Shown here: positions 699 through 20,774 of the stretch, piece by piece
Layout: each line of letters opens with the position of its first letter
Numbering within the stretch: position 1 is the first letter of the stretch
Position numbers and translations under genes: made by a program
Source of the DNA: a virus
Strand: one strand, 5' to 3'
Virus record (IMG/VR): IMGVR_UViG_3300021247_000285
Location: 1 to 32,731 of that record
DNA: 32,731 bases
The notes under the pieces: generated by a model
Told to the model about the DNA's origin: nothing
What the model saw: the letters and a program-made list of their open reading frames with translations, nothing else
Databases searched by the model: none

Positions 699-3690
699 AA
701 AAATAAATCAACTAGCGACAGAAATGTCACCTGCTGCAAGTGACCTTACAATAATAGGTGACCCAATAACAGGTGTATCAAAAAAGATTACACTTGAACA
801 AATTTCATATTTATTTGGTGGCACAGTTTCTTTTTATACTAATTATGCATCATTCCCTGCAACAGGCGAAGTTGATGTAATATACTGTGCGAAGGATACT
901 AAAAAACTATATTTGTGGTCAGGTTCTGCCTATGTAGAAATGTTCCCTAGTCAGGCATTATTAGATACATATCAATTAAGAAGTGAGAAAGGAAATGCTA
1001 ATGGCTATGCATCATTGGATAGTTTAGGCAAAGTTCCTATTTCGCAATTGCCTAGTTCTATTATGGAATATAAGGGAATGTGGAATGCAGCAACAAATAC
1101 CCCAACATTAGCTAATGGCACAGGTGATACAGGTGATGTATATATATGTAATGTTGCAGGTACAGTTAACTTTGGTGCAGGTGCAATTACATTTGCAGTA
1201 GGTGATTATGTAGTTTATTCAGGTACTATTTGGCAGCGTTCAAGTGGTGCAACAGGTACGGTTACAAGTGTAGCAGTTACTGAAACAGGTGATGCATTAA
1301 CAATAACAGGTTCACCAATTACTACAAGTGGAACAATCAATATAGGCTTTGCAGGAACAGGTTCACAATATATTAAAGGTGATGGTACTTTAGCTACTTT
1401 CCCTACAACAATTTCAGAAGCACAAAAATTAGTTACTGAAGTATATAATAGTACAGGTGCAACATTAACAAAAGGTACAGTAGTTTATATTAATGGTGGT
1501 CAGGGAAATTTACCAACGGTTACTAAGGCACTAGCTACAGGTGATTCAACTTCAGCACAAACTTATGGTGTAGTAAAATCTGACATAACTAATATGAATA
1601 ATGGTTATGTTGTAGTAATGGGTGCATTAATTGACTTAGATACACAGGCTTATTCTGTTGGAACACAACTTTATTTAAGTAGCACAACTGCAGGTGCATG
1701 GACTACTACAAAGCAATACGCACCTAATCATTTGGTTTATGTAGGTATTGTAGTTAGGTCGCATCCTACACAGGGTGTTGTAGAAGTAAGAATTCAGAAC
1801 GGATTTGAATTAGATGAACTTCATAATGTTTCTGCACAAACACCTTCAAATAATAACGGAATATTTTATAATACTTCAACTTCATTATGGGAGGCTAAAT
1901 CTATTGCAACGGCATTAGGTTATACACCTGCAAATGATTCTTTAGTAGTACATTTATCAGGTAGTGAAACAATAACAGGTACTAAGACTTTTAATCCTCA
2001 ACAAAAGTTTGATGGCACATTAGCAATAAAAGAAGGCACTAGCGGAACATTAACAGGATATACTGTTTTGGGTGCTAATACAAATCAGTTGTTAGTTGGT
2101 GTTGTAGGTGCAACACATACTTTAACTTTCCCATCTTCAACAGGATATGTTTATACATTGCCAAGTGCAACAGGAACTTTAGCTTTAACTAGTGATTTAT
2201 CTTCTTATGTTCTAACAACTAGAACTATTTCTACTACTGCACCATTGCAAGGTGGTGGGGATTTAAGTGCAAATAGGACTTTATCTATAACACAAGCGAC
2301 TACTTCAACAAATGGTTATTTAAGTAGTACGGATTGGAATACTTTTAATGGCAAACAAAATGCTTTAACTAATCCTGTAACAGGTACAGGTACAAGCGGA
2401 CAAGTAACTTACTTTAATGGTACTTCATCAATTACAAGTTCAGCGAACTTAGCTTGGGATGGTACTAATTTATCAATAGGAAATCCAAGTTCACCTTTAG
2501 CACAATTACACGTTTACAATGCAAGTGCGGCTGCAACTATTTTATTACAAACTAATAGCACTACTGATTATTCGGAAATAGCAGTAAGGAACAATAGTTC
2601 AACGGCTACTTCTTATTTTAGACAATATTCAACGGCTACGACAGGAAGTGATTTTGGTATATCAAGGGCAGGATTAGCTTTGTTCTTTAGTAACTATGCT
2701 ACTAACTTTGCAATAGGAACTAGAAATGGAGGTAATTTAATATTTGGTACGGCTGATACTGAAAGGGCAAGGATAAATACTTCAGGTAATTTTGGAATTG
2801 GAACAACTTCGCCAACTTCTCCTTTGCACGTTGGTACTGCAACAAGTGGTAATCAAAAGATACAACAATGGGGAGAACCAGGTTTTGTTGACAATTACGG
2901 TTTAATATTAAGGGGAAGTAGTTTAGATGGTATATTCAAGTTTTATGGTTTAAACAATGGTACGGAAACTAGTTCGCCTATTTTATCAATGAACAGAAGC
3001 AATGGTAACGTAGGTATAGGAACAAGTACTCCAAATACCTATTCAAATTATACAAACTTACAAGTAAATGGAACTAGTGCAGGAATGGTTCAAGTATCAG
3101 GTTCTTCATCTACGTTAGCATCTTTTTATGCAGGTTCAGGTATAGGTCAAATAGGCACTACATCTAATCATCCTTTTATGTTCTTTACTAATGATGTTGA
3201 AAGAGCCAGAATTACAAGTGGGGGGGTATTATGTGTTGGAACTACTTCAGGATTTGATAGTGGGAAGATTTGTTCGGATGGTGGGACTGATTATACTCCA
3301 TTCGCTGCAAAAGTAGGCACAACTGCAAATGCAGGGCAAATGTATTTTAGAAATCCAAATGGTATTGTTGGTTCAATCACTTCTAGTGGTTCAGCAACTT
3401 CTTTTAACACTTCATCTGATTATCGTCTAAAACAGGACATAAAAGACTACAACGGATTGTCTTTAGTTTCTGCAATTAAAACTTATGATTATGAATGGAA
3501 ATCGGATAATACAAGAGCTTATGGAGTTTTAGCTCACGAATTAGCAGAAGTAATTCCTTATGCAGTACACGGACAAAAAGACGGTAAAGAAATGCAAGGT
3601 GTTGACTATTCTAAAATAGTACCAATATTAGTAAAAGCAATACAAGAACAACAACAACAAATAGAAGAATTAAAACTAAAAATAAAATAA
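688..3690 (+). CDS. tail fibre with C-terminal S74 self-cleaving chaperone domain
   Basis: A 1000-residue receptor-binding fibre. The N-terminus (about 1-45) is the likely virion-attachment part. The long middle is Gly/Ser/Thr/Asn-rich and low complexity, as in beta-structured trimeric fibres, with repeated phrases such as GIGTTSPTSPLHVG and NVGIGTSTPNT. From about residue 907 it matches the intramolecular chaperone of endosialidase (Peptidase S74): the motif SSDYRLKQDI supplies Ser910-Asp911 at the expected cleavage site and Lys915 as partner, followed by a Y-G-V-x-A-x-E-L core and a C-terminal coiled coil (QEQQQQIEELK). In this family the domain trimerises the fibre and then cuts itself off. 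Host specificity probably resides in this gene. Confidence 0.88.
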   Translation: MESKKINQLATEMSPAASDLTIIGDPITGVSKKITLEQISYLFGGTVSFYTNYASFPATGEVDVIYCAKDTKKLYLWSGSAYVEMFPSQALLDTYQLRSEKGNANGYASLDSLGKVPISQLPSSIMEYKGMWNAATNTPTLANGTGDTGDVYICNVAGTVNFGAGAITFAVGDYVVYSGTIWQRSSGATGTVTSVAVTETGDALTITGSPITTSGTINIGFAGTGSQYIKGDGTLATFPTTISEAQKLVTEVYNSTGATLTKGTVVYINGGQGNLPTVTKALATGDSTSAQTYGVVKSDITNMNNGYVVVMGALIDLDTQAYSVGTQLYLSSTTAGAWTTTKQYAPNHLVYVGIVVRSHPTQGVVEVRIQNGFELDELHNVSAQTPSNNNGIFYNTSTSLWEAKSIATALGYTPANDSLVVHLSGSETITGTKTFNPQQKFDGTLAIKEGTSGTLTGYTVLGANTNQLLVGVVGATHTLTFPSSTGYVYTLPSATGTLALTSDLSSYVLTTRTISTTAPLQGGGDLSANRTLSITQATTSTNGYLSSTDWNTFNGKQNALTNPVTGTGTSGQVTYFNGTSSITSSANLAWDGTNLSIGNPSSPLAQLHVYNASAAATILLQTNSTTDYSEIAVRNNSSTATSYFRQYSTATTGSDFGISRAGLALFFSNYATNFAIGTRNGGNLIFGTADTERARINTSGNFGIGTTSPTSPLHVGTATSGNQKIQQWGEPGFVDNYGLILRGSSLDGIFKFYGLNNGTETSSPILSMNRSNGNVGIGTSTPNTYSNYTNLQVNGTSAGMVQVSGSSSTLASFYAGSGIGQIGTTSNHPFMFFTNDVERARITSGGVLCVGTTSGFDSGKICSDGGTDYTPFAAKVGTTANAGQMYFRNPNGIVGSITSSGSATSFNTSSDYRLKQDIKDYNGLSLVSAIKTYDYEWKSDNTRAYGVLAHELAEVIPYAVHGQKDGKEMQGVDYSKIVPILVKAIQEQQQQIEELKLKIK

Positions 3691-3691
3691 A

Positions 3692-4021
3692 ATGAGTACA
3701 ACTTACAATTGGGTAATAAACCAAATGGATACAAAGCCAACCGAAGATGGCTTAACTGATGTAGTGGTAACAGTACATTGGACTAGAGTAGCAACGGAAG
3801 GCGAAATCGTAGTATCTAGTTACGGCACAATGAATTGCACAACTCCGAGTGCTACAGACTTTACAGCATATCCTGACTTAACACAGGAGCAAGTAGAATC
3901 TTGGCTTGATGCAGGATTAGATGTACCTACTATTGATTTAGGATTAGACAAACAAATTGAGGATATTATCAATCCACCAATAATTGTTTTGCCTTTGCCT
4001 TGGCAGAATACAAATAATTAA
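3692..4021 (+). CDS. small fibre-associated protein (DUF7936-like)
   Basis: 109 residues starting 1 nt after the fibre stop. The pattern TYNWVINQMD ... VVVTVHWTRVATEGE ... YPDLTQEQVESWLD resembles small proteins found next to tail fibres in many phages (the fold named DUF7936, as I recall it). The end is hydrophobic and Pro-rich (PPIIVLPLPWQ). A role as fibre assembly or capping factor is plausible from position only. Confidence 0.55.
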   Translation: MSTTYNWVINQMDTKPTEDGLTDVVVTVHWTRVATEGEIVVSSYGTMNCTTPSATDFTAYPDLTQEQVESWLDAGLDVPTIDLGLDKQIEDIINPPIIVLPLPWQNTNN

Positions 4022-4032
4022 TTATATATTTG
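4000..4032 (+). promoter_or_regulatory. candidate Bacteroidota promoter before lysis cassette
   Basis: TATATTTG at 4025-4032 matches the Bacteroidota -7 consensus TAnnTTTG. A TTG at 4000-4002 lies 22 nt upstream, slightly longer than usual. It ends 16 nt before the first ATG of the lysis cassette. It would allow separate late expression of lysis genes. Confidence 0.5.
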
Positions 4033-4048
4033 TAAAAAAAATAACATT

Positions 4049-4189
4049 ATGACACTTAACGAACAACAACTACAGGAACTACAAAACATTATCAATGCAA
4101 TCCCTACATTATACGGAGTGCAATTAATTCAATTTTTTCAAAAGGTAAGCCAAGATAACGCACCTAAAGAAGAAGTAAAAGAAGACTAA
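4049..4189 (+). CDS. 46-residue hypothetical at the head of lysis cassette
   Basis: ATG at 4049 gives a 46-residue protein (begins MTLNEQQLQE, ends EEVKED). It has an amphipathic N-terminus with a central LYGVQLIQFFQ stretch and an acidic tail. Its stop TAA shares one base with the ATG of the next gene (TAATG), a sign of coupled translation that supports it being real. Function is unknown; lysis control is possible from context. Confidence 0.6.
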   Translation: MTLNEQQLQELQNIINAIPTLYGVQLIQFFQKVSQDNAPKEEVKED

Positions 4190-4362
4190 TGACACCACAT
4201 AGCGACCGAGCAGACATATCAACACTTACAAGCATTTTAGGTGCAGTTATTTCAATAACAAGTATTCAACCAATAGTTACATTAATGGCTAGTTTGGTCG
4301 CTATTGTTTCAGGTTTATTTGCAATTAGATATTATTACAAGGCTATTAAAAAGTTAAAGTAA
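4189..4362 (+). CDS. holin-like small membrane protein 1
   Basis: 57 residues. A hydrophilic start (MTPHSDRADIS) is followed by two hydrophobic segments, roughly 14-30 and 31-50, and a basic tail (YYYKAIKKLK). Both ends overlap neighbours by one base (TAATG). Small size, two membrane segments, charged C-terminus and the downstream spanin and endopeptidase fit a holin that would permeabilise the inner membrane at lysis. The next gene is an alternative candidate, so which one is holin and which antiholin cannot be told. Confidence 0.65.
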   Translation: MTPHSDRADISTLTSILGAVISITSIQPIVTLMASLVAIVSGLFAIRYYYKAIKKLK

Positions 4363-4553
4363 TGATGAAGTTTTTAAATACTATATACGGTTCATGGGTT
4401 AAAATATTCCTATCTGCCATACTTGCAATGGTAATAAGCAAAGGTGATATTTATTCAGTAACATTAAAGGATTGTATCAATGCAGGTATCATTTCAATAT
4501 TACCTATAGTCATAAATTATATAAATCCACACGATACCAGATATGGGAAATAA
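4362..4553 (+). CDS. holin-like small membrane protein 2
   Basis: 63 residues with hydrophobic stretches at about 12-27 and 40-55, ending in NPHDTRYGK. The ending NP-x-DTRYGK is familiar to me from holin-like proteins of Flavobacteriia phages. The start overlaps the previous stop by one base and the end overlaps the spanin gene by 11 nt. It may be the holin or a second pore or antiholin component. Confidence 0.65.
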   Translation: MMKFLNTIYGSWVKIFLSAILAMVISKGDIYSVTLKDCINAGIISILPIVINYINPHDTRYGK

Positions 4554-5043
4554 AACTAAGTTATTTATTATTTATTTAATATGTTTATTTTTAATAATAA
4601 TATCAGGATGCAATAGTATAAAGAAGGCAGAAAGAAAGGTTTTAAATGACAAAGAAAGTAGTGAAAGGGTATTCAGGGAATTAGAAAAAACAAGACCTTG
4701 TGCGAATGATACAACGGTTATAACTGTTTCAGATACAGTTTATAAAACAGATACTGCTATAGATTATAAAAGGGATACAATAAACAATGTTATAACATTG
4801 ACTGAAAAGGGAAAAATAATTTATAAGACTAAGACAATAACTGAAACCAAAACTGCGTTTGTAGTAGATAATCGTAGATTGGATTTAATGGCTGATTCTG
4901 TGCGTTTCTACAAGGTTTCTTTGGCATATAGTATAGATACCACAAAAAAGTGGAGAGGTCGATTTTGGAACTTATTATTAGGTTTAATTGGATTTATAGT
5001 AATTATTGTATTTTTATATAAGCTATTAAAGACTTTAAAATGA
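4543..5043 (+). CDS. probable unimolecular spanin (u-spanin)
   Basis: 166 residues with a complete u-spanin layout. The N-terminal signal sequence ends in a lipobox, I20-S21-G22-C23, with Asn at +2, so the protein should be an outer-membrane lipoprotein. A periplasmic region of about 115 residues follows, rich in Thr/Val/Asp strands (TTVITVSDTVYKTDT). A C-terminal transmembrane helix spans about 142-162 with a basic tail. One chain anchored in both membranes is the design of T1 gp11, which fuses the two membranes in the last step of lysis. It overlaps the endopeptidase gene by 4 nt and sits between holin-like genes and endolysin. No homology search was possible. Confidence 0.72.
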   Translation: MGNKTKLFIIYLICLFLIIISGCNSIKKAERKVLNDKESSERVFRELEKTRPCANDTTVITVSDTVYKTDTAIDYKRDTINNVITLTEKGKIIYKTKTITETKTAFVVDNRRLDLMADSVRFYKVSLAYSIDTTKKWRGRFWNLLLGLIGFIVIIVFLYKLLKTLK

Positions 5044-5546
5044 AAGACCAAGTAACATTAGATAGGATAAAATTATTGCATCCTAAGTTAAAAGATGAAG
5101 TTTTAAATATATATGATGAAATAGTAGCTGCACTTAATGGTTCAGCTATTTGTCGTTTTGCATATACTTTAAGAACTTTTGCTGAACAGGATGCATTATA
5201 TGCACAAGGTAGAACAAAGGTAGGTGCTAAGGTTACAAATGCTAAAGGTGGGCAGTCATATCATAATTATGGGTTAGCTATTGATATTGTTTTATTGGTA
5301 GACAAGGATAAAAATGGTAGCTTTGAAACTGCAAGTTGGTCAACCAATGAAGATTTTGATGGGGATAAGACTGCAGATTGGATGGAAATAGTTTCTATAT
5401 TTAAAAGATATGGGTTTGAGGCAGGAATAGATTGGCATTTTAAAGATGCTCCACATTTCCAAAAGACCTTCGGATATTCTGTAAAAGAATTACAAGATTT
5501 ATATAACTCTAAAAAAGTAGATAAAAATAATTATGTTCTTATATAA
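5040..5546 (+). CDS. endolysin, M15 peptidoglycan endopeptidase
   Basis: 168 residues with the M15C (VanY/L-alanyl-D-glutamate peptidase) signature: RTFAEQDALYAQGR near residue 44, SYHNYGLAIDI supplying zinc ligands His75 and Asp82, and DAPHF with His139 as third ligand and Asp136 as likely catalytic base, in the same spacing as T5 endolysin. It would cut peptide stems of murein in the periplasm. No signal peptide is visible, so export through a holin is expected. It overlaps the spanin gene by 4 nt and the homing endonuclease by 14 nt. Confidence 0.88.
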   Translation: MKDQVTLDRIKLLHPKLKDEVLNIYDEIVAALNGSAICRFAYTLRTFAEQDALYAQGRTKVGAKVTNAKGGQSYHNYGLAIDIVLLVDKDKNGSFETASWSTNEDFDGDKTADWMEIVSIFKRYGFEAGIDWHFKDAPHFQKTFGYSVKELQDLYNSKKVDKNNYVLI

Positions 5547-7480: not shown

Positions 7481-7515
7481 TTACCATTTATCCCTATTAT
7501 TTACCGTTCATCACA
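7481..7515 (+). promoter_or_regulatory. twin operator, copy 1
   Basis: Two direct repeats TTACCATTTATC (7481-7492) and TTACCGTTCATC (7501-7512) have start-to-start spacing of exactly 20 bp. The same pair with the same 20-bp spacing occurs at 20047, identical at 30 of 35 positions. The second box starts 40 bp upstream of a TTTG -33 element in both places. This looks like an activator or repressor site bound on one face of the helix. Confidence 0.75.
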
Positions 7516-7540
7516 TTTCTAAAAAATAAGTGCATATTGT

Positions 7541-7571
7541 TTTGATAGTATGTTCATAAGTTGTATATTTG
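7541..7571 (+). promoter_or_regulatory. Bacteroidota-type promoter for replication operon
   Basis: TTTG at 7541-7544, a 19-nt spacer and TATATTTG at 7564-7571 match the Bacteroidota primary sigma consensus (TTTG/TAnnTTTG). The transcript would carry an A-rich leader (AAACAAACAAAAAAC) to the ATG at 7609. No other gene start or terminator lies between. Confidence 0.8.
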
Positions 7572-7608
7572 CTATGTCATTAATTGATAAACAAACAAAA
7601 AACAAATT

Positions 7609-8141: not shown

Positions 8142-8687
8142 ATGAAATTAGTAAAAATCCAAACAGAATTAAAAGCACCCAAAAACCAAACAAATGCATT
8201 TGGTAAATATAAATACAGGAGTGCAGAGGACATTGTAGAAGCAGCCAAACCTATACTTTTCAAGTATGATGCTGCCCTATTAATTAGTGATGAAATGGTT
8301 CAGGTAGGTGAAAGAATATATGTAAAAGCTACTGCAACATTGATACTAGATGAAAATAATATTGTATCTGTTCATGGTTGGGCAAGAGAAGAAGAAGTTA
8401 AAAAAGGTATGGATGCTGCACAGATAACAGGTAGTGCTAGTTCATATGCCAGAAAGTATGCTTTAAATGGATTATTCGCCATTGATGATACAAAGGATAG
8501 TGATGCAACCAATGACCATAAAGATGAAGTTGGTGAAGACAAAAGAATGGAATTGATAGTATTATTGGAAAACACAATTTGGGATAGCACTACAAAGGAT
8601 TCTATTGCAAATAAGATTAGTCAATATACTACTAAGGAGCAATACAATAAAGCGTATAAATCTATTACTGAAAATCAAATAAAATAA
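8142..8687 (+). CDS. ERF-family single-strand annealing protein
   Basis: 181 residues. The conserved ERF core is visible: YKYRSAEDI (23-31) near the start, then DAAQITGSASSYARKYAL (91-108) and GLFAIDDTKD (110-119). ERF proteins anneal complementary single strands in phage recombination and genome circularisation, usually with an exonuclease and SSB. The C-terminal 50 residues are a less conserved helical tail. It lies in the replication operon. Confidence 0.88.
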   Translation: MKLVKIQTELKAPKNQTNAFGKYKYRSAEDIVEAAKPILFKYDAALLISDEMVQVGERIYVKATATLILDENNIVSVHGWAREEEVKKGMDAAQITGSASSYARKYALNGLFAIDDTKDSDATNDHKDEVGEDKRMELIVLLENTIWDSTTKDSIANKISQYTTKEQYNKAYKSITENQIK

Positions 8688-9278: not shown

Positions 9279-9707
9279 ATGTCAATACAAAAAGAAATAT
9301 ATGATGCATATAAGATGCAAAAGGATAGCTTTAATTTTCTGCATAAATTAATGACTAAAGAAGGAATCATATTAGATGATATTGCAGTTACAATTACAGA
9401 TAGAACTATCAAGCCAATTAAAGTAGTACAGTTAGTTGAAGAAATATTTAATACTGACATCAAAGCTAAGAATAGAAAACAAAGTACTGTATTTGGTAGA
9501 CAAGCTGCTGCATATCTATTAAGACTTTATACTAGGTTAAGTTTATCTGAAATTGCACCTTTCATTGGTGTTAGTCATCATACGACTACATTATATTCAA
9601 TCAAGAATTGCCAGAATCTAATGGATACTGAAGATTGGTATAAAGAAAAAGTCATGCAGATTTGCACAGAATTAGATGAATATAATTTATATTTGCAATC
9701 TAATTAA
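9279..9707 (+). CDS. DnaA domain IV-like DNA-binding protein
   Basis: 142 residues. Residues about 70-128 resemble the C-terminal DNA-binding domain of DnaA: RQAAAYLLRLYTRLSLSEIA, then FIGVSHHTTTLYSIKN, comparable to the DnaA signature G-x-DHTTVLHA. There is no AAA+ ATPase part, so this is a DnaA-box-binding module alone. The N-terminal 65 residues are helical and unassigned. Lying just before an initiator-like gene with iterons, it may help mark the phage origin or interfere with host DnaA. Confidence 0.72.
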   Translation: MSIQKEIYDAYKMQKDSFNFLHKLMTKEGIILDDIAVTITDRTIKPIKVVQLVEEIFNTDIKAKNRKQSTVFGRQAAAYLLRLYTRLSLSEIAPFIGVSHHTTTLYSIKNCQNLMDTEDWYKEKVMQICTELDEYNLYLQSN

Positions 9708-18523: not shown

Positions 18524-18895
18524 ATGGGTAACCCAAAAGCAATAGAAGGGCAAGGATTTCACACTAACCCTGAAAGAATAAATAAAGAAGGCAGACCTAG
18601 AAAATATGTCAGCCTACTAAAAGAACAAGGCTATAAACTATCTGAAATTAATGATAGTATACAGGCTTTAATGTCTATGGATGAAGAAGAATTAAAATCA
18701 GTTAGCACAAATGACAAAGCTACTGTATTAGAAAAAACTATTGCTAAGGCTATTTTAAAGTCAATGAGTAATGGTAGCTTATATTCATTAGATACTTTGT
18801 TGACTAGGGTATACGGCAAACCTAAAGAGCAAATGGATATTAAATCAGATAACAAAATAGAAGTTATCTTTGTAGATGGTAAAACCATTTTATAA
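18524..18895 (+). CDS. probable terminase small subunit
   Basis: 123 residues. The N-terminal GFHTNPERINKEGRPRKYVS resembles the start of DUF5681-like and small-terminase-like proteins. The helical middle (LSEINDSIQALMSMDEEEL) and SLYSLDTLLTRVYGKPKEQ follow. It ends one base into the ATG of the large terminase (TAATG), the classic small-large order. It would recognise the packaging site. Confidence 0.65.
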   Translation: MGNPKAIEGQGFHTNPERINKEGRPRKYVSLLKEQGYKLSEINDSIQALMSMDEEELKSVSTNDKATVLEKTIAKAILKSMSNGSLYSLDTLLTRVYGKPKEQMDIKSDNKIEVIFVDGKTIL

Positions 18896-20046
18896 TGCAA
18901 ATATTCCTACCCAATCCACACGCTAACCAACAGAAGATACTAGAATGTGATAAACGTTTTAGAGTGGTGATGTGTGGTCGTAGATTTGGTAAGTCAGAAC
19001 TATCACAGATACTTTCAGTCACATATGCCGTTAAAGGTCTATCTGTGGCTTATATAACCCCTACTTATGGATTGGCTAAGGTTTTCTTCAGTAAGCTAAC
19101 CGAATCCCTAGAACTGCCTAAAAACAAGTCTGACCTAAAAATAGACTTTCCCAATGGTGGGCAGGTAGAATTTTTTACAGGTGAAAGATTGGATAACCTA
19201 AGAGGTAGAAAGTTCCATTTGGTTATTATAGATGAAGCATCATTTATCCCTGACCTAGAATCAGGATGGCAAAATAGTATTAGACCTACTTTAACCGATT
19301 ACAAAGGCAAGGCAATATTCCTTTCAACACCTAGAGGGAAAAATTATTTCTATAGTTTATTTATGAAGGCAGGGGAAAATGATTGGGCATCATTCAAGTT
19401 TACTAGCTATGACAATCCTTTCATTGACCCAATGGAAATAGATGAAGCTAGGATGCAATTACCCAATGTGGTATTTGAGCAGGAGTACATGGCTAACCCA
19501 TCAGAGAATAGTGCTAACCCATTTGGTAATAAGTTCATACAGGATTGTGTAAAGCCAATTAGCAATCAACCAATAGTAGCATTTGGGATTGACCTTGCTA
19601 AGTCAGTAGACCACACCGTAATTATAGGTCTTGATAATGGTGGCAATGTGGCTTATTTTGACAGGTATCAAATGGATTGGCATAATACTAAGGAGAATAT
19701 TAAAAGGTTACCCAGATGCCCTATATTAGTAGATAGTACAGGTGTAGGTGACCCTATCCTAGAAGACCTGCAAAGAGAAGGGATAGCCATTGAAGGATTG
19801 AAATTTACAAGTTCAAGCAAGCAACAATTAATGGAGGGGTTAGCTACTGCCATTCAACAGGGCAGGATAGGATTCCCTGAAGGAGCAATCACAAATGAAT
19901 TGCAAGTCTTTGAATATCAGTTTACTGCAAATGGTGTTAAGTATTCTGCACCATCAGGATTCCATGATGACTGCGTTATGGCATTGGCTTTGGCTTGGAA
20001 TAACTTCAGCATAAAAAGGGGTAATGGCAGGTATTCTTTTGTATAA
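18895..20046 (+). CDS. terL: terminase large subunit
   Basis: 383 residues with both required activities. ATPase: Walker A CGRRFGKS (27-34), Walker B LVIIDEA (Asp113, Glu114), motif III STPRG (144-148). RuvC-like nuclease: Asp233 in GIDLA, Asp280 in VDSTGVGD, and Asp358-Asp359 near the end. It pumps DNA into the prohead and cuts concatemers. It is shorter than many TerL (about 420-550). The first operator box of the next control region begins right after its stop codon. Confidence 0.93.
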   Translation: MQIFLPNPHANQQKILECDKRFRVVMCGRRFGKSELSQILSVTYAVKGLSVAYITPTYGLAKVFFSKLTESLELPKNKSDLKIDFPNGGQVEFFTGERLDNLRGRKFHLVIIDEASFIPDLESGWQNSIRPTLTDYKGKAIFLSTPRGKNYFYSLFMKAGENDWASFKFTSYDNPFIDPMEIDEARMQLPNVVFEQEYMANPSENSANPFGNKFIQDCVKPISNQPIVAFGIDLAKSVDHTVIIGLDNGGNVAYFDRYQMDWHNTKENIKRLPRCPILVDSTGVGDPILEDLQREGIAIEGLKFTSSSKQQLMEGLATAIQQGRIGFPEGAITNELQVFEYQFTANGVKYSAPSGFHDDCVMALALAWNNFSIKRGNGRYSFV

Positions 20047-20081
20047 TTACCGTTCATCCTTGATATTTACCGTTCATCACA
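20047..20081 (+). promoter_or_regulatory. twin operator, copy 2
   Basis: TTACCGTTCATC at 20047-20058 and again at 20067-20078, start-to-start 20 bp, followed by ACA as in copy 1. 30 of 35 positions equal copy 1 at 7481. It starts at the base after the terminase stop. Confidence 0.75.
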
Positions 20082-20106
20082 AAGTTTAAAAATAGTTGGC
20101 AAAATG

Positions 20107-20139
20107 TTTGGATTGTGTATATAAGTTATACTATATTTG
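20107..20139 (+). promoter_or_regulatory. Bacteroidota-type promoter for tail-leading operon
   Basis: TTTG at 20107-20110, 21 nt, TATATTTG at 20132-20139. The -33 element lies exactly 40 bp after the start of the second operator box, as at 7541. The leader AAACAAACCAAAAACACAAA to the ATG at 20171 resembles the leader of the first copy. Confidence 0.8.
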
Positions 20140-20170
20140 ATTTATCAAACAAACCAAAAACACAAACGTT

Positions 20171-20410
20171 ATGAAAAATCCACAATTAACAGAATTAGAA
20201 TTTTTAGTTCTTAAGTCTTTAAGTCAACAAGATACATTTGATGAATTACCAACTTCTTCTGTTGAAAATTTAATTGATGAAACAGGTATTGAAGCAAAAC
20301 AAATTAGAGGTGTTTTAACTTCTTTATATAATAAGGGTTTAGTTCAATCAATTGTTTTTCCAAATAATAAACTTGGTTTTCAATTTATGACTAATTTATA
20401 TCAATTTTAA
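20171..20410 (+). CDS. winged-helix-like small protein
   Basis: 79 residues. LTELEFLVLKSLSQQD, then SVENLIDETGIEAKQIRGVLTSL and NKGLVQSIVF read as a winged helix-turn-helix (MarR-like topology). It is the first gene behind the duplicated operator-promoter, so it may regulate that promoter or both copies. Confidence 0.6.
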   Translation: MKNPQLTELEFLVLKSLSQQDTFDELPTSSVENLIDETGIEAKQIRGVLTSLYNKGLVQSIVFPNNKLGFQFMTNLYQF

Positions 20411-20426
20411 TAATCTAACCCAAAAA

Positions 20427-20452
20427 GTCAGGGGTGCGACTGACCAACGCAC
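20427..20452 (+). ncRNA. candidate H-type pseudoknot in leader of next gene
   Basis: Stem 1 GTCAG (20427-20431) / CTGAC (20440-20444). Stem 2 GTGCG (20434-20438) / CGCAC (20448-20452). The stems interleave with linkers of 2, 1 and 3 nt, a sterically reasonable H-type pseudoknot. It is G/C-rich in AT-rich surroundings and ends 7 nt before an ATG, so it could control translation. Confidence 0.5.
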
Positions 20453-20459
20453 ATTTATT

Positions 20460-20774
20460 ATGGCAAACAAAACTAACAATATGAAAAATCAAAAATCTAG
20501 CGAATACCTATACAAGTACTTAACAAATCAAAGAGGATTTGAAATAGCTAGAAGGTCACTACTTAGACAAATGGAATGGTTTGAACCTACTGATTTAGAA
20601 AATTCAATTGCTAATACTTATGGTATGTTGATGGTTGCAAATGGGGGGAATAAAGATGAATCAATTAAATTTATTTCTAAGATTTATCAACCTGAAAATC
20701 TAACTAAGCTATTTAAAATGATTGAGAACAATGAAGAATTAAATTCAGAATTAGTAAACGAAATATTAAATTAA
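20460..20774 (+). CDS. hypothetical protein behind pseudoknot
   Basis: 104 residues, helical (FEIARRSLLRQMEWFEP; ESIKFISKIYQPENLTKLFKMI), acidic C-terminus. An internal ATG at 20481 is possible, but the upstream one was kept for its A-rich context. No family recognised. It lies between two candidate RNA structures. Confidence 0.6.
   Translation: MANKTNNMKNQKSSEYLYKYLTNQRGFEIARRSLLRQMEWFEPTDLENSIANTYGMLMVANGGNKDESIKFISKIYQPENLTKLFKMIENNEELNSELVNEILN

Follow-up and report, generated by a model that had tools for sequence, protein, structure and literature searches.

The segment 20047–20139 of the window (the whole 32,731-nucleotide stretch of viral DNA analysed here) is best explained as a complete regulated promoter, predicted from its sequence: two direct-repeat boxes, together forming a twin operator, are followed by the elements of a Bacteroidota promoter. 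The operator is part of a wide putative phage regulon with sharp geometry, and activation by a host regulator of the LytTR family is the best explanation for it, one that we consider on balance probable.

The operator-promoter module and its two copies

The TAA stop codon of TerL occupies 20044–20046, and the operator sequence TTACCGTTCATC begins one base past it, at 20047, to be repeated at 20067; the two ACCGTTCATC boxes within it are thereby spaced by exactly 20 bp (Table 1). The first-pass annotation had described this as a second copy of a twin-operator promoter, lying one base after the TerL stop and agreeing with copy 1 in 30 of 35 bases. Realignment of 20047–20081 against 7481–7515 confirms this identity, and the module found at 7483–7571, whose boxes are likewise 20 bp apart, supports the description as a second copy.

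In both copies the boxes are followed by a TTTG and, after a spacer of 21 nt in copy 2 and 19 nt in copy 1, by the element TATATTTG. The −7 consensus of flavobacterial sigma-A is described as TAnnTTTG, located at −12 to −5 (PMC9723704), and the window promoter (TTTG-N21-TATATTTG) conforms to it; since the consensus has this location in flavobacteria, transcription is expected to start near 20144 in copy 2 and near 7576 in copy 1. The difference in spacer length had been taken to mean that the two promoters may differ in strength or in their need for an activator. The lengths do differ, but the distance from the operator to the −33 element is 38 bp in both copies, so the 19- and 21-nt spacers appear to be a by-product. 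The shared distance points to a fixed position of the activator rather than to two different designs. An activator, as suggested, is likely.

Table 1. Operator boxes, promoter elements and neighbouring genes in the window.
Feature	Position	Strand	Basis
Operator box 1, copy 2 (ACCGTTCATC)	20049..20058	+	sequence
Operator box 2, copy 2 (ACCGTTCATC), 20 bp after box 1	20069..20078	+	sequence, spacing count
−33 element TTTG, copy 2, 38 bp from box 2 start	20107..20110	+	promoter alignment, distances
−7 element TATATTTG, copy 2 (Bacteroidota sigma-A TAnnTTTG)	20132..20139	+	consensus as described in PMC9723704
Operator box 1, copy 1 (ACCATTTATC)	7483..7492	+	sequence
Operator box 2, copy 1 (ACCGTTCATC)	7503..7512	+	sequence
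−33 element, copy 1, 38 bp from box 2 start	7541..7544	+	promoter alignment, distances
−7 element TATATTTG, copy 1	7564..7571	+	promoter alignment
Single-strand annealing protein ERF, marking the operon that follows copy 1	8142..8687	+	
TerL, gene upstream of copy 2	18895..20046	+	
Small winged-helix-like protein, first gene of a variable cassette, not conserved	20171..20410	+	

The protein encoded at 20171 has weak Pfam hits, and its structure model shows the element order H-H-H-E-E at a mean pLDDT of 62.9; its fold is thus plausibly a winged helix. At 9279–9707 the window encodes a 142-aa protein, whose only significant Pfam match is to the DnaA C-terminal (DnaA-box binding) domain (E 1.2e-12).

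Recurrence and helical phasing across phages

Single boxes are weak evidence: the window contains five matches with up to two mismatches, against 1.67 expected. One two-mismatch match inside terL, weak, on the opposite strand and without a promoter, was treated as coding sequence rather than as an operator. The box pair is not weak evidence. When each box is allowed at most one mismatch and spacings from 10 to 60 are counted, 49 of 51 same-strand pairs in 22 phage contigs (G041 left out) are exactly 20 bp apart, the others having spacings of 15 and 48 (one each); five shuffles of all contigs yielded 14 pairs over all spacings, a single one of them at 20 bp. The twin operator is therefore far beyond chance.

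The exact twin is present in 70 IMG/VR stretches and its ACCGCTTATC version in 28. Within the family of the window it recurs at two sites, one preceding the ERF operon and the other immediately following TerL, ahead of the structural block; some phages have a third or fourth site. It lies within 200 bp after TerL in 58 of 78 TerL relatives and is absent there in 20 (two of 80 loci, L048 and L049, have incomplete sequences and were not counted). Fourteen of the loci in which the twin is absent after TerL have kept the TATATTTG promoter there (L053, L057–L061, L065, L066, L068, L071, L074, L075, L077 and L079); G020, the 26.2-kb record behind L061, has no twin anywhere.

The operator site extends to several unrelated phage lineages. 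In the distant contigs G026, G033 and G035 it lies 7–52 bp before ERF, with the −7 element at 42. G036 has no gene cluster in common with the window family, and in G037 only two small families match the window, one of them marginally; in each of the two contigs the twin is perfect and its −7 element phased. L377, a 65-kb viral contig with the ACCGCTTATC twin and TATATTTG at 43 bp, is perhaps another operator-bearing lineage. L141, a 63.8-kb phage contig with one twin operator, also encodes a 528-aa protein at 3665–5248, which, going by its sequence, we take to be chaperonin-like.

Aligned across 19 representative operators, both boxes follow the consensus TTACC(G/A)(T/C)T(C/T)ATC, in which C, C and T are invariant and changes are mostly transitions; little information resides in the 10 nt that separate the boxes or in the DNA beyond the ACA tail of box 2. 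Distances were evaluated on 128 distinct segments, which fall into 24 sequence clusters under a clustering cut-off different from that used for the consensus. The −7 element lies mostly at 41–42, 50–53 or 60–63 from box 2 (Rayleigh R of 0.78 at the level of clusters, against 0.13 for shuffled tails searched with the same finder). Seven segments are exceptions: one lacks a −7 element, and six have other distances (44, 45 and, in four cases, 65), the cluster at 65 also having TAnnTTG at 41. Divergent second operators near the ERF promoter (G002:27974, G008:3354, G028:3650, G042:16969) have TAnnTTG as their −7 element, at 41, and this motif resembles the alternative sigma motif SM5 described for Flavobacterium psychrophilum (PMC9723704).

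A TTG at −33 is present in 88 of 128 segments (the 39 without one were not counted), and in these the distance from operator to −33 is 17 (10 segments), 20 (1), 27 (11), 35 (2), 36 (5), 37 (8), 38 (50) or 39 bp (1). The distances of 17, 27 and 38 bp are helical steps, and would constitute a natural series of activator positions; the promoters of L144 and L006, with distances to −7 of 52 and 63, are nearly the same except for one helical turn of DNA. By arithmetic, the centre of the twin comes to lie near −60, −70 or −80 in the three classes. Such positions fit class-I-type activators like CRP.

The gene behind the operator-promoter changes from phage to phage, in almost every relative, while the promoter stays. 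Within the cassette of the window, 7 nt before the ATG at 20460, stands GTCAGGGGTGCGACTGACCAACGCAC (20427–20452), a conserved 26-nt leader element compatible with an H-type RNA pseudoknot. Its stem 1 pairs GTCAG with CTGAC, with the paired variants GCAG/CTGC, ACAG/CTGT, ATAG/CTAT and GTAG/CTAC, and its stem 2 pairs GTGCG with CGCAC, with ATGCG/CGCAT and GCGCG/CGCGC, in a search that itself demanded pairing; the C-G/T-A change in stem 1 was also matched in every one of 20 variants that had been chosen on their sequence only. The element occurs in at least 119 IMG/VR stretches, often 7–8 nt before an ATG, and in none of 198 Bacteroidota genomes; Rfam gave no match, either at gathering score or in an E-value search of the stretch, and single-strand folding without pseudoknots is unremarkable (z −1.36). 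It is possibly a translational or regulatory element of phages. In three post-TerL cassettes (L015:4076, L035:11137 and L123, minus strand, 714) it is followed immediately by a second twin operator-promoter; genes of the cassette thus seem to move together with control elements of their own.

The candidate regulator

LytTR sites are described as two repeats of 9–11 nt with 11–13 nt between them and without a common consensus (PMC4847170), so that the letters of the boxes alone do not identify the family. In the layout of the boxes, the 9-mer ACCGTTCAT is followed by 11 nt before it recurs, giving the 20-bp register. For the LRS operators, the repeats are likewise reported 11–13 nt apart, often 10 bp upstream of −35 (PMC6193735), and AgrA sites, found at promoters whose spacers are long, reportedly have their centre near −60 (PMC4227749). 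Phage operators of the 17-bp class lie 8–9 bp from −33, in the layout of LytTR sites near −35; in the window copies the operator is two helical turns further upstream. It was what we take to be the operator motif of BtsR that first suggested LytTR for the boxes. Box, pair spacing and placement all fit the operators of LytTR response regulators; the assignment of the operator to LytTR is a likely one.

A LytTR gene of the phages themselves was sought and rejected as a candidate: the domain (Pfam PF04397) was found in none of 44 virus records, which may be fragments, and our own profile, which finds 30 of 30 known loci, found it in none of 222 phage loci. The same operator and activator logic could nevertheless be served by an unrecognised protein that the phage makes early in infection instead of a host LytTR protein, a possibility that we regard as rather unlikely. 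A middle or late phage activator would be expected to control both main blocks, the window family keeps DnaA_C, sigma-like and HTH_39 proteins, and the 20-bp twin is rare in host genomes: it was found in 8 of 395 Bacteroidota genomes, against 2 in a reversed control, and in 8 of 149 genomes of a second set, against 5. However, no protein family of the window is common to all operator-bearing lineages and none reaches G036, so that a common phage regulator tracking the operator was rejected as well. G022 has the operator but no HTH_39, whereas the operator-free G020 keeps DnaA_C and sigma-like genes; neither DnaA_C nor HTH_39 finds a match in G026, G029, G033 or G035, several of these contigs being fragments, and the sigma-like family matches G026 weakly (3e-04). 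The absence of LytTR from the phage sequences examined, the lack of a shared family and the genes of G020 together favour a host protein.

The evidence for LytTR as this host protein extends to bacterial twin motifs with spacings of 20–21 bp, which were collected from at least 118 loci; most of them have a spacing of 21 bp, not 20. Among the matches listed, 9 of the 60 intergenic loci have a LytTR gene no more than 300 bp away, as does 1 of the 22 loci in repeat arrays but none of the 36 coding ones; the count is small. In Bacteroidota, 20-bp twins adjoin LytTR genes in L307, L348, L349 and L351, and the host promoters L262 and L357 each show a twin with spacing 20 and the −7 element at 42, the same as in the phages; these six loci are a selection. 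The genome scans of Bacteroidota gave a LytTR gene in 4 of 21 host loci, two of the four (L348 and L349) having first been found in the bacterial twin scan. Against LytTR it counts that bacterial twins mostly use 21 bp, that the 20-bp twin is rare in Bacteroidota genomes although LytTR genes are numerous, being present in 13 of 13 genomes tested, that 20 of 78 TerL relatives have no operator near TerL, and that a loose box scan around 30 LytTR genes in Bacteroidota detected no enrichment at 20–22 bp over the reversed control. That another direct-repeat binder of the host uses the boxes is improbable in our judgement: helical phasing and the arguments for a host factor would hold for any class I activator, and only architecture and neighbourhood speak for LytTR, but the boxes have the repeat length and spacing described for LytTR sites, and it is LytTR genes that adjoin a share of the intergenic twins.

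That the repeats serve as a repressor site, as replication iterons or as a packaging (pac) site, rather than as an activator site, is very unlikely: one of their two places adjoins terL and the phage has a DnaA_C-like protein, but the repeats also stand before ERF, a TAnnTTTG-like promoter follows them nearly always, at phased distances, and at about 80 bp upstream of the expected +1 they stand too far away to act by simple occlusion. Feedback control through the 20171 protein, which the first-pass annotation had read from a winged-helix protein being encoded by the first gene downstream, can practically be dismissed: the protein has a single relative in IMG/VR and belongs to no window family present in at least 3 of 23 contigs, though most of these carry the operator, and the same promoter leads into unrelated genes in other phages, so that as the general binder of the boxes it drops out.

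Activation by a host LytTR regulator, as we infer it, would proceed as follows. The two boxes, two helical turns apart, would form a LytTR-type operator; a dimer of a LytTR-family response regulator of the host (or a LytTR one-component regulator) would bind them on one face of the helix and, from about 80 bp upstream of +1, would activate the host sigma-A RNA polymerase in a class-I-like manner. The operator-promoter at 7483–7571 would play the same role for the ERF/replication operon, and both main gene blocks of the phage would answer to one host signal. That many environmental Bacteroidota phages have the same paired site, at fixed helical positions ahead of their main gene blocks, suggests that a sensor-controlled regulator of the host switches on their replication and structural genes. 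A broader reading, which we offer tentatively as possible though not probable, is that unrelated Bacteroidota phages converged on one LytTR sensor pathway of their hosts as a gate for the replication and structural operons, placing the operator at about −60, −70 or −80, one turn apart; the lytic programme would then run only in a certain host state, and relatives without the operator would have moved to hosts or signals without the regulator.

As to the hosts, a search for TerL in 395 Bacteroidota genomes, run without a positive control, returned nothing at 1e-60. Among named phages the MCP has no match, and the portal shows only a distant likeness to those of Nonlabens and Tenacibaculum phages; for the operator, named phages and plasmids gave short, weak matches and no clear counterpart, and the papers listed as containing the letters of the box look unrelated. 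If host LytTR activation holds, the operator would be a readable mark of the host signal to which a metagenomic phage listens and, used as a bait of phage DNA, a way to fish out the host regulator.

Comparison with known systems

Host response regulators at phage promoters are already described for CtrA (PMC9437464) and PhoB (PMC10976474); our literature search for such control found no case involving LytTR or Bacteroidota. The phage operator shares with those of the LytTR family (AgrA, the LRS of HdrR/BrsR, YpdB and BtsR) the two direct repeats of 9–10 nt, one face apart, upstream of a promoter with variable spacer; the site of AgrA, reportedly centred near −60 (PMC4227749), corresponds to the 17-bp class. 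It differs in that the pair spacing is 20 instead of the usual 21, in that the promoter elements are those of Bacteroidota, in that other operators stand one and two turns further upstream, and in that no LytTR gene was found in the phage sequences examined.

CtrA is an OmpR-like regulator and controls the cell cycle, whereas the box type here is LytTR-like and the hosts are Bacteroidota. As in the phages of Alphaproteobacteria, where CtrA sites are discussed as 'lytic deferment' (PMC9437464), sites of a host response regulator would stand at phage promoters and have evolved in several lineages; binding and reporter assays are reported there, whereas the sites described here are predicted from sequence. 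The PhoB boxes of cyanophages offer a further parallel, a two-component regulator of the host acting on phage promoters, but they are described for phosphate-stress-responsive genes (PMC10976474), whereas the operator described here is followed by the replication and structural blocks. Phages that carry agr homologues without AgrA are likewise thought to use a LytTR regulator of the host (PMC11945551); those phages are described as bringing signal and sensor genes, whereas operators alone were observed in the phages described here.
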